Positions 654-13,289 of a stretch of 34,152 nt of DNA are shown one piece after another (within the stretch, counting starts at the first letter, position 1; each line of letters opens with the position of its first letter). The DNA is from a virus. Made by a program: the position numbers and the translations under genes. The notes under the pieces were generated by a model. It was not told the DNA's origin, searched no databases, and saw only the letters and a list, made by a program, of their open reading frames with translations. Location: positions 1 to 34,152 of IMG/VR virus record IMGVR_UViG_3300017746_002838; one strand, given 5' to 3'.

Positions 654-661
654 TATAAATA
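654..661 (+). promoter_or_regulatory. T4-type late promoter (exact TATAAATA)
   Basis: An exact match to the T4 late consensus TATAAATA on the plus strand. Initiation is expected near 667, about 100 nt upstream of the 39-codon gene at 769. The leader contains two direct copies of TTGTAACA (665-672, 676-683), an inverted GTTACA (700-705) and a TCCC/GGGA mini-hairpin (708-718). Confidence 0.7.
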
Positions 662-768
662 CTTTTGTAACACGATTGTAACATTAATTTAACACAAACG
701 TTACAGGTCCCATTGGGATAAAGTAATTGTTAAACTGTTGCATTGTGTACCAAATACAGGAGAATATT

Positions 769-888
769 ATGGCGAATCCATTAGGAATAGTAGCCAGATT
801 AACCCACACGGCATCTGATTACTTCACAAAACTAGACAAACTATTAATGGCAGGACGTTTTGATAACGTTGTCAATAAAGCATTCTAG
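769..888 (+). CDS. 39-residue protein of unknown function, isolated late mini-gene
   Basis: A 40-codon frame starting MANPLGIVARLTH and ending VVNKAF. I do not recognise it. The case for a real gene comes from its setting: an exact late promoter upstream (654-661), a strong AGGAGA ribosome site 7 nt before the ATG, and a GC-rich hairpin terminator just after the stop (906-927). The product is basic and looks like one or two short amphipathic helices; no signal peptide or strong membrane segment is visible. It is transcribed opposite to both neighbours. A late monocistronic unit suggests high expression late in infection (inference). Confidence 0.65.
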   Translation: MANPLGIVARLTHTASDYFTKLDKLLMAGRFDNVVNKAF

Positions 889-905
889 TAAAAAAATACT
901 AATAA

Positions 906-927
906 AAAGGGAGCAAATGCTCCCTTT
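906..927. terminator. Bidirectional intrinsic terminator between two convergent mini-genes
   Basis: AAAGGGAGC (906-914) pairs with GCTCCCTTT (919-927) around the loop AAAT. The A-rich 5' flank and T-rich 3' flank provide a U-tract in both directions. It would end the plus-strand 39-codon gene and the minus-strand 54-codon gene. Confidence 0.75.
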
Positions 928-10403: not shown

Positions 10404-11134
10404 TATTTCTCCTTAAAATCTTCGTAAAGGACTGCCTTTGTTACTGACTTTACTTTTCCGCCTAAACTCAAAGTAACTATCCCTAAATCTTTTTTATCAT
10501 TCACATACAGAATTCTTTTTGTTCGCCAACCTCTATATGTGTCAGTGAAGTATTCTTTTTTACCACATCTACCACCTAATCTATTAAGCAGTGACTTGAA
10601 TTTTTGTTTGCTCTGTTCAGATAAATCTGTACGTTTAGCATAATATTCTGGTGTAAATTCTATTTTATATCTATATTTATTCAACCATAGGTTAGGACGT
10701 AGTGCAACCTCGGTATCTTGTAATACTTCTGCTTCTAAATCTTCTCTGGGTCCACAAATACGTTTAACGAACCTGTGGAACTGTTCCACAAAATCTTTAA
10801 GGTGGTCGGCATCAGTAAACCAAATAGTTCTGTCTTTTTCCCAACGTTGTCTAAAAACATCGTGTCTGTGTGTAAACCAGTAATCATTATTTGCGTGTCT
10901 CACTTCACCTAAGAATTTAGCAATTTTGTGATGTATAGTGGTTAACGTATGGTCCTCGTTGTCGTGCATAAATGAATCATAGTCTCCTTCTTCCTCGCCT
11001 GTAATACTGTTTATTATAATTCTACTGCCGTCTATAATAACTTTATATGGGTAATGCCCATACTCTTTTTTGTACATAGGCTCTACTGGAATAGAGTGTA
11101 ACACAAATCCTAATGCTTTAATTTGATTAGCCAA
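10403..11134 (-). CDS. Conserved-looking protein of unknown function, TTG start
   Basis: 243 residues, unrecognised. The sequence is charged and aromatic (for example NNDYWFTHRHDVFRQRW near residue 85) with a basic C-terminal domain rich in Lys and Arg and ending VLYEDFKEK. No signal peptide, membrane segment or catalytic motif is clear. The start is a TTG at 11134: GGAGAT lies 7 nt upstream, the frame overlaps the clpA stop by 8 nt, and the next Met is only at residue 20. It sits between clpA and lysozyme and is probably translationally coupled to clpA. Confidence 0.65.
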   Translation of the reverse strand: MANQIKALGFVLHSIPVEPMYKKEYGHYPYKVIIDGSRIIINSITGEEEGDYDSFMHDNEDHTLTTIHHKIAKFLGEVRHANNDYWFTHRHDVFRQRWEKDRTIWFTDADHLKDFVEQFHRFVKRICGPREDLEAEVLQDTEVALRPNLWLNKYRYKIEFTPEYYAKRTDLSEQSKQKFKSLLNRLGGRCGKKEYFTDTYRGWRTKRILYVNDKKDLGIVTLSLGGKVKSVTKAVLYEDFKEK

Positions 11135-13289
11135 TTACAAAATCTCCGTCTTTATAATCTATGACAAAGTCTTTGTGTTCTGCTTCTTCGTAAATAATCT
11201 TTTTACTTAAAGGCTTCTTAACCTTCTCTTCGAACACTCTTTTAAGGGGTCTAGCACCCATTGTAGGCTCGTATCCTGCTTTGGCTAGTTCTTCTGTAGC
11301 AAGTGGAGTAAACACAATTCTAATGTCTTTATCGTTGCCCTGTAGCAGTTCATTTGTTTCATCTATAAGCCTGTCTATAATCATATACATTTGATCCATA
11401 CCCAGTTTATTAAACTTGACTACTGAATCTATTCTGTTTCTAAACTCTGGAGTAAAGAAAGTTTTAACTGCTTTGACATCTGTATCTTTCTTCTTTTGTT
11501 CTCCGAAACCTACTTTGAGTTTTTCTGCATCAGCGGCACCTAAGTTACTTGTCATTAGCAATATCGCATTATTAAAGGAAACTGTTTTACCTGTACTACC
11601 TGTAAGTCTACCGTCGTCCATTATTTGTAACAACACATTTAATACTTCTGGTGCGGCTTTTTCTACTTCGTCTAGTAGTAAAATACAGTTAGGGTGTTTC
11701 TCAACTTCTGATAATAACAGTCCTTGTCCTAGTTCGCCTTCTGCGTGTCCTACATAACCAGGAGGAGCACCAATCAATTTACTTACACTATGCCTTTCCA
11801 TATACTCTGACATATCAAATCTTACCAACTCAACATCTAGACACTCTGAAAGTCGTTTTGCTGTTTCTGTTTTACCAACACCAGTTGGGCCTACTAATAA
11901 GAAACTACCAATGGGTTTATCGTGTTCCCTTAGTCCTGCTTTGCTAACAAGTATGCTTTCTACCATCTTATCTATTGCATCATCTTGTCCAAACACTTTG
12001 TCTTTTATTCTAGCATCTAATGTTTTATAACTGTCTTTCTGTGATACATCTAACATATCTTTACTTACTTTTGATATTTTAGCAACTTGCTGAAATACAT
12101 TTTCCATAGACACATTAGGTACTTTATCTAATTTACTAACTGCACCTGCTTGGTCTAGTACATCAATTGCTTTGTCTGGCAATGCTTTGTTTTTGATATA
12201 TTGTTCTGACAAAGTAACAATCTTTTCTATAGTGCCTTCATCATACATCACACCGTGGTAGTCTTCAAAGAGAGGTTGCAATCCTTTACACACTTCAATG
12301 GTGTCTGAAATATTCATTGCTTCAACTTCTAATCTTTGGAATCTACGCATTAATGCTCTGTCTTTTTCAAAACTGTTTGCAAATTCATCTGGAGTAGTTG
12401 CACCAATAGTTTGAAGTTTGCCTTTGCCCAGAACTGGCTTTAAAATATTAGCAACATCTAAACTGCTACTTCCTGCACTACCGGCACCCATAATCTGATG
12501 TATCTCATCTATAAACAATATGACATCATCTCTGCCTTCTAATCCTTCCAGCACATTCTTCATACGTTCTTCAAAGTCGCCTCTAAACTTAGTACCAGCA
12601 ACCATTGAGCCAATGTCTAAATTGTAAACTTGTTTGCCTTGTAATGCTTCAGGTATATCCTTGTTTACAATTCTGTAAGCAATACCTTCTGCAATAGCAG
12701 TTTTACCTGTGCCTGGTTCTCCAACTAACACACAATTATTTTTCTTACGTCTAGCAAGTACTTCTACTACTTCTCTGACTTCTTCGTGTCTGCCAATTAG
12801 CGGATCAACACCGCCGTCTATAACTTCTTGATTTAAGTTTTTGAGGAAACTTCCATCTAGTTCGCCGTTAGCATCTTCACTAACAACTGCATTTACTAGT
12901 ACTGTTCTGTTTACATTATTTGCTTGTAGGAAATAACTTGCTTGGCTTTCTTTTTCACTACACAAACTGATTAATACATCTAGTTCTGTAATTTCTTCTC
13001 TACCTGTGAATACAACTTGCGTAAATGCTCTTTGTAAAACTCTTTCTACAGATGTTGTGGGTCTAGGTGTGCCTGTGCTACCGCCCTCACTTTTAAGTCC
13101 GTTGTAATCTGTGTTATTTAAATATTCTTCTATATCAGAATCTAATGTTTTTAAGTCTCCACCGACACCTAAACATAACTGTCTAACTTGCTCATTTTTT
13201 AAAAGTATAAACAGAACGTGTTCCAAAGTGACATACTCGTGTCCTCTGTTAGATGCTTCTGTACTTGCTGATGATACTATGTGTTCCAT
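11127..13289 (-). CDS. clpA: ClpA-type AAA+ unfoldase of the Clp protease
   Basis: 720 residues, close to E. coli ClpA in length and order. The Clp N-domain (about 1-140, YVTLEHVLFILL) carries the adaptor and substrate surface. D1 has Walker A GEPGTGKT (190-197) and Walker B VILFIDEIH (256-264). D2 has Walker A GPTGVGKT (467-474), Walker B ILLLDEVEKA (536-545) and the TPEFRNR sensor region. There is no ClpB-type middle domain. KVGFGEQ (592-598) aligns with the ClpA IGL loop and fits the [LIV]-G-[FL] ClpP-docking consensus, so it should bind a ClpP; one is encoded at 32537-33139. The dnaJ stop lies 22 nt upstream. A late-type ATTAAATA sits exactly 5 nt before the ATG, suggesting both read-through and leaderless late expression. 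Confidence 0.93.
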   Translation of the reverse strand: MEHIVSSASTEASNRGHEYVTLEHVLFILLKNEQVRQLCLGVGGDLKTLDSDIEEYLNNTDYNGLKSEGGSTGTPRPTTSVERVLQRAFTQVVFTGREEITELDVLISLCSEKESQASYFLQANNVNRTVLVNAVVSEDANGELDGSFLKNLNQEVIDGGVDPLIGRHEEVREVVEVLARRKKNNCVLVGEPGTGKTAIAEGIAYRIVNKDIPEALQGKQVYNLDIGSMVAGTKFRGDFEERMKNVLEGLEGRDDVILFIDEIHQIMGAGSAGSSSLDVANILKPVLGKGKLQTIGATTPDEFANSFEKDRALMRRFQRLEVEAMNISDTIEVCKGLQPLFEDYHGVMYDEGTIEKIVTLSEQYIKNKALPDKAIDVLDQAGAVSKLDKVPNVSMENVFQQVAKISKVSKDMLDVSQKDSYKTLDARIKDKVFGQDDAIDKMVESILVSKAGLREHDKPIGSFLLVGPTGVGKTETAKRLSECLDVELVRFDMSEYMERHSVSKLIGAPPGYVGHAEGELGQGLLLSEVEKHPNCILLLDEVEKAAPEVLNVLLQIMDDGRLTGSTGKTVSFNNAILLMTSNLGAADAEKLKVGFGEQKKKDTDVKAVKTFFTPEFRNRIDSVVKFNKLGMDQMYMIIDRLIDETNELLQGNDKDIRIVFTPLATEELAKAGYEPTMGARPLKRVFEEKVKKPLSKKIIYEEAEHKDFVIDYKDGDFVIG

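Follow-up and report, generated by a model that had tools for sequence, protein, structure and literature searches.

The DNA analyzed here, hereafter the window, is the whole of the viral record IMGVR_UViG_3300017746_002838 in IMG/VR (34,152 nucleotides, positions 1 to 34,152). It contains a short unit encoding a 39-residue protein on the + strand that converges with a second short unit on the − strand. The features of the two units, with the evidence for each, are as follows:

654–661, + strand: putative late promoter TATAAATA, T4-type by its sequence
665–672 and 676–683, + strand: two copies of TTGTAACA (sequence)
666–683, + strand: TGTAACA-N4-TGTAACA direct repeat where the mRNA is expected to begin (sequence and relatives)
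670–748, + strand: leader RNA, one long irregular hairpin (covariation, match to RNA model R1 at 667–771, fold of the window)
688–694 with 728–734, 700–704 with 723–727, and 707–711 with 715–719, + strand: leader helices in the predicted fold of the window
700–705, + strand: inverted GTTACA (sequence)
758–763, + strand: Shine-Dalgarno (SD) sequence AGGAGA (sequence; conserved in alignment A2)
769–888, + strand: 39-residue ORF MANPLGIVARLTHTASDYFTKLDKLLMAGRFDNVVNKAF, ATG at 769–771 and stop at 886–888 (sequence; relatives)
777–786, + strand: coding hairpin P4, 777–779 with 784–786, that is, ORF nt 9–11 with nt 16–18 (relatives show all four Watson-Crick pairs at nt 9:18)
789–823, + strand: predicted coding stem P5, 789–793 with 819–823 and 795–799 with 813–817 (folds; one-sided, G-U changes in type 1 ORFs)
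811–885, + strand: small-peptide body, homologous to a separate gene B elsewhere (sequence comparison)
905–927, terminator-like on the − strand: GC-rich hairpin between the two convergent units and common to both (terminator scan)
934–1098, − strand: facing 54-codon ORF (sequence; relatives in loci L031, L039 and L041)
1117–1231, − strand: two tandem glutamine riboswitches, RF01739, 62.1 and 61.5 bits (Rfam gathering scan)
1231–1246, no strand assigned: palindrome TGTAACTTGCGTTACA at the 5′ end of the facing transcript (sequence)
1251–1258, − strand: putative late promoter of the facing unit, GATAAATA (sequence)

The original prediction, made from the letters of the window, described a stand-alone late gene with its own promoter, TTGTAACA repeats, inverted GTTACA, AGGAGA site, 39-residue frame and terminator, and all of these elements are found in the sequence. 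The terminator needs qualification: the GC-rich hairpin is present, but it passed the terminator scan on the − strand only, and because its U tract is weak on the + strand, it may serve mainly the facing gene. The recurrence of TGTAAC/GTTACA in the facing unit is accounted for by the palindrome TGTAACTTGCGTTACA; before the matching gene in L039 and L041 this palindrome, TGTAAC-GCAA-GTTACA, becomes TGTAAT-GCAA-ATTACA, a paired change that keeps it palindromic. The two tandem riboswitches ahead of the facing ORF had gone unmentioned. They are the only hit in the gathering scan of the window, which leaves the 39-codon unit without a family; an E-value scan of 640–940 matched neither the glutamine nor the Downstream-peptide family (the best sub-threshold match falls on the hairpin at 894–940), and a known riboswitch in the leader was dropped as a candidate because it has no Rfam match. 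On the other side of the unit, a sigma-70-like site (TTGACT-16-TATAAT, 11/12; 607–634, − strand) lies ahead of a HAD/NT5C-like gene at 3–584.

Compared with shuffled sequence, the window is enriched neither in KATAAATA (7 seen, 6.85 expected) nor in TGTAACA (17 seen, 13.2 expected), so the promoter and repeat signals gain weight from relatives alone. Relatives were collected from IMG/VR with back-translated peptides (14 of 34 candidate stretches confirmed) and with a profile (19 of 25); this protein-found set comprises, with the window, 20 contigs and 15 distinct units. All 15 units have the same order of elements: an ATAAATA promoter core (as T/GATAAATA in 14 and as CATAAATA in L048), four bases, TGTAACA, four bases, TGTAACAT, the leader, the SD sequence and the ORF; in L032 the first repeat copy is CGTAACA instead of TGTAACA. 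Searches with DNA patterns extended the set, the pattern of the 5′ elements identifying 52 stretches and that of the coding start 66. The coding-start pattern also occurs in 50 of the 52 stretches; of the other two, L087 lies on a contig that is continued by L097, where the pattern is present, and L072 is without it, its ORF resembling the peptide body only. The frame is thus conserved in relatives, as the original prediction required, and the gene can be regarded as a real, stand-alone gene of late type.

The sequence NATAAATA is described as the late promoter of cyanomyoviruses (PMC2984593). Among the NATAAATA sites of the fetched loci, the TGTAACA repeat is restricted to this unit, apart from the palindromic version before the facing gene; we therefore dropped the idea that TGTAACA is a late element in general use. 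The unit resembles a T4-type late transcription unit in the sequence of its putative promoter, and the window encodes a T4-like clamp loader, but the other late promoters in the fetched loci have neither the repeat nor, as judged by R1, the leader.

Behind the promoter, RNAalifold and minimum-free-energy folds give one long irregular hairpin that extends from ~+1 to ~20 nt before the ATG; the whole-domain fold of the window has z = −2.05. In an alignment of 14 sequences (A3), 84.8% of the pair cells are standard pairs and 45 double changes occur, compared with at most 42.2% and 12 in slid controls. At E ≤0.01, model R1 has 61 matches in 64 sources (the sources without a match are L072, L087 and L097). 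In alignment A4, which was fitted to the R1 model and whose rows are related, so that the counts are not independent events, 86.7% of the cells are paired in 48 distinct rows, with 180 double changes (slid controls, ≤46.2% and 36); for the 34 distinct rows outside the set used to build R1, the values are 86.4% and 120 (slid controls, ≤45.3% and 30). These comparisons show covarying secondary structure in the leader.

Conserved bases next to a promoter could instead constitute a double-stranded DNA site for protein binding, recombination or packaging. The TGTAACA copies are 11 bp apart, and both have changed to TGTAAT in L094 (a record of 339,794 bases) and in L102 (a record of 216,820 bases), a parallel change as if the repeat were recognized; also, the sequence of the leader 5′ arm, with its TGTAACA copies, is kept more than pairing requires, which would fit a DNA-binding site as well. 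Such a site leaves unaccounted for the G-U pairs that are common in the leader helices (e.g., 22 of 48 rows at columns 13:94), the covariation of the pairing and the start of the domain at the promoter. We consider a DNA-level element very improbable as an account of the domain, although for the TGTAACA repeats alone that reading could still hold.

With its own promoter, the unit would produce a compact, stand-alone transcript, and by mechanical ORF calling it is opposite to both flanking ORFs in 38 of 49 distinct units (five have one same-strand neighbor, and six have no neighbor on one side). The best R1 hit is one per record in all 14 whole records (strong in 13, weak in the record of L072); further leader copies were considered and dropped because their hits were weak. 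The compact transcript and the opposed orientation, as well as the concentration of the strongest sequence conservation in a single block (GTAGCC and its flanks), might be expected of a dual-function or trans-acting RNA, that is, one in which the folded 5′ domain acts on a phage or host target by pairing or sequestration and the peptide is a second product. A start codon, an SD sequence and an open frame are present in 61 of 61 R1 matches, however, and a pure trans-acting RNA would need none of them; we judge this alternative unlikely.

The conservation does not end at the start codon. In 52 distinct ORFs, codon 8 is always GTA and codon 9 always GCC; at codon 2 (GCG/GTG), codon 5 (TTA/ATA/CTA) and codon 7 (ATA/GTA/ACA/GCA/AAA), the third base is fixed while the residue varies. 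Because the coding-start pattern itself fixes bases, the 10 ORFs from loci added solely by that pattern were left out, and the result was unchanged in the other 42. In neighboring genes, GCC and GCG represent 10% and 6% of the alanine codons, respectively. For the ORFs with a recognized body motif (38 of 52), the synonymous (pS) and non-synonymous (pN) differences over 130 pairs are 0.088 and 0.080 in codons 2–9 and 0.495 and 0.198 in 18 codons of the body. An ordinary conserved small protein, with an N-terminus kept for protein function, would agree with the purifying selection on the body, but in codons 2–9 of the type 1 ORFs (the type in the window) synonymous change is even less frequent than non-synonymous change (pS 0.042, pN 0.078; 189 pairs); the corresponding values for type 2 are 0.080 and 0.034 (152 pairs). 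That explanation, to which we give almost no credence for the unit as a whole, is already disfavored for the first nine codons and would hold for the body. As judged by these substitution patterns, the constraint on the first nine codons acts at the level of nucleic acid, not of protein.

Within this stretch, P4 can be examined by covariation. The nt 9:18 pair in 32 ORFs of the CCA class is U-A in 17, A-U in three, G-C in one and C-G in one, with no pair in 10; 22 pairs were reached in 11 of 100,000 permutations. In nine of the 10 ORFs without this pair, nt 9 is instead Watson-Crick complementary to nt 5, beside the start codon, as it is in none of the 22 with it; that is, 22 ORFs have only nt 9:18, nine have only nt 9:5, none has both and one has neither. 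In the 20 ORFs of the TCC class the corresponding pair is invariant and so uninformative. The choice between two partners for nt 9 might amount to a gate, as read from a difference between sequences rather than from a single molecule. Synonymous recoding of codons 2–26 yielded z below zero for all 46 distinct starts (mean −1.64, compared with −0.28 for 60 control starts), the value for the window being only −0.69. Stem P5 is predicted in most units; because its register differs between ORF types, it rests on folding and the one-sided changes in type 1, and the support for this modeled stem is weaker than that for P4 and the leader.

A less elaborate proposal is that the RNA is a plain mRNA stabilizer and translation enhancer, with hairpins that protect the message and keep the ribosome site open but do not regulate. 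The start of the hairpin at ~+1 and the accessibility of the SD sequence (mean unpaired probability 0.65, compared with 0.54 in 45 control starts) are what it predicts; for the AUG, the difference from control genes is not clear (0.46 and 0.41). It explains neither the fixed third bases at unpaired coding positions nor the two pairings of nt 9, and we regard it as improbable.

The proteins encoded behind the RNA domain differ. Type 1 and type 2 ORFs have 39–49 residues and mostly share a body, K-F/L-D-x-x-M-K-x-G-x-x-x-x-V/I, that is under purifying selection (dN/dS ~0.28). In other loci the same coding start opens gene A, which has a signal-peptide-like N-terminus (judged by eye) followed by two invariant cysteines in a protein of 99–124 residues; gene A is carried by L055, L061, L064, L076, L089 and L100, and in L052 a 55-residue membrane-like protein lies behind the same coding start. 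Of 11 such units whose downstream DNA is readable, 10 carry the peptide body as a separate gene, B, of 21–35 residues (L056 is without it), and in seven of the 10 it overlaps the stop codon of A as ATGA. Because B is a separate gene behind A elsewhere, the ORF in the window can be described as the start of A (~12 codons) joined to the body of B; this form probably arose through loss of A, with insertion of A as a possible alternative direction. The C-terminal peptide body is the product common to nearly all units. The original prediction took the complete signals for so short a product as a sign of selection; this stands for the body, which is selected as protein, but not for the signals as serving the 39-residue product as such, given that the first nine codons are RNA-constrained and the same leader precedes other proteins.

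Gene A belongs to no known family, and a structural model (mean pLDDT 74.4) had no Foldseek match at E ≤0.001 in PDB or BFVD, so an assignment of function from fold was abandoned; B as a cationic antimicrobial-like peptide was dropped by eye because the type 1 bodies have several acidic residues. A distant group (L119–L122) encodes A plus a B-like peptide of 21–35 residues (read from the DNA) with a different coding start. R1 scores L119–L121, whose late promoter is related, only weakly (18–24 bits) and does not match L122; behind the promoter, L119 and L120 have TGTGTCA/TGACACA and L121 has TGTTACA/TGTAACA.

Searches with the 39-residue protein of the window found no match among 50,697 deposited phage records (tblastn), in PHROGs or in Pfam, and tblastn with a type 2 ORF and with gene A found nothing in named phages. 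With blastn, the window region and the L055 unit gave short matches only, the terminator-like hairpin among them, and R1 found nothing convincing in PA5oct, 121Q, GAP32, SCTP-2, Atu_ph07 and P-SSM7 (best E 0.31). In GTDB genomes the protein profile identified 28 stretches, none confirmed, and the DNA pattern identified none; a cellular origin of the unit was dropped because both scans were empty of confirmed cases. Identity to the group of the Pseudomonas jumbo phage PA5oct is 55% for the clamp loader encoded in the window and 68.5% for the Gp23 capsid protein of the L048 record; because of these values, we take the carriers to be uncultured relatives of the PA5oct lineage. The window also encodes a ClpA-like ATPase (11127–13289, − strand) that is 48% identical to its counterpart in the Pseudomonas jumbo phage MIJ3. 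Glutamine riboswitches are known in marine myophages (PMC9004378), and from the adjoining riboswitches we suspect a marine origin of the carriers; the glnA RNA itself (RF01739) stands in tandem before the facing gene, and the 39-codon unit is unmatched by it.

The closest analogy is Downstream-peptide RNA (RF01704, yfr6), a relative of the glutamine riboswitch and likewise a structured 5′ RNA that serves short ORFs of no known family; these encode 17 to 100 residues in aquatic microbes (PMC2864571). In contrast, the 39-codon unit has no Rfam match and a different fold, and its conserved RNA continues through the start of the ORF. The unit would work like other cis-regulatory mRNA leaders, but the RNA extends unusually far into the coding sequence. 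Hairpins that stabilize mRNAs from the 5′ end, and hairpins around start codons, act in cis; here, the ribosome site lies between two folded blocks, which recur with different proteins. Literature searches covering open PMC papers found no description of this RNA.

Our preferred reading, to which we assign a probability of roughly 60%, is that the unit is a late mRNA that opens with an apparently undescribed, structured RNA domain of ~155 nt (the leader and approximately the first 18–23 codons), followed by the coding sequence of the tiny conserved peptide B. Comparison of relatives shows the leader hairpin, P4, the nucleic acid constraint on codons 2–9, the protein constraint on the body and the occurrence of different proteins behind a constant RNA domain; most likely, the domain is a cis-acting element for the translation or stability of the tiny late peptide. 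The unit would be transcribed late from its ATAAATA-type promoter; the domain would act in cis, the hairpin from ~+1 shielding the mRNA 5′ end and the SD sequence sitting in the gap between the two folded blocks, and hairpins within the first six codons (nt 9 with nt 18, or with nt 5 in a subgroup) may tune translation initiation. Against this reading count the CCA-class ORFs without the nt 9:18 pair, both z values of the window, an AUG that is not clearly more open, the over-conserved TGTAACA copies, the relatedness of the rows and the fitting of A4 to its model.

More tentatively, and in our estimation doubtful, the domain could represent a new class of phage RNA switch, with the start codon and the codons just after it inside the switch (nt 9 pairing with nt 18 or nt 5). 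It would gate a tiny peptide together with a secreted protein made late, and would have been kept while most of the gene that it first controlled was lost; the downstream genes give no hint of a metabolite ligand. An apparently undescribed RNA class in uncultured phages, in which a defined coding stretch is kept as RNA while its amino acids drift, would add to phage biology a family of late peptides of 21–49 residues that is absent from Pfam and PHROGs; also, it opens a direct test of whether a phage controls its late translation with an RNA domain that extends over the beginning of the reading frame.
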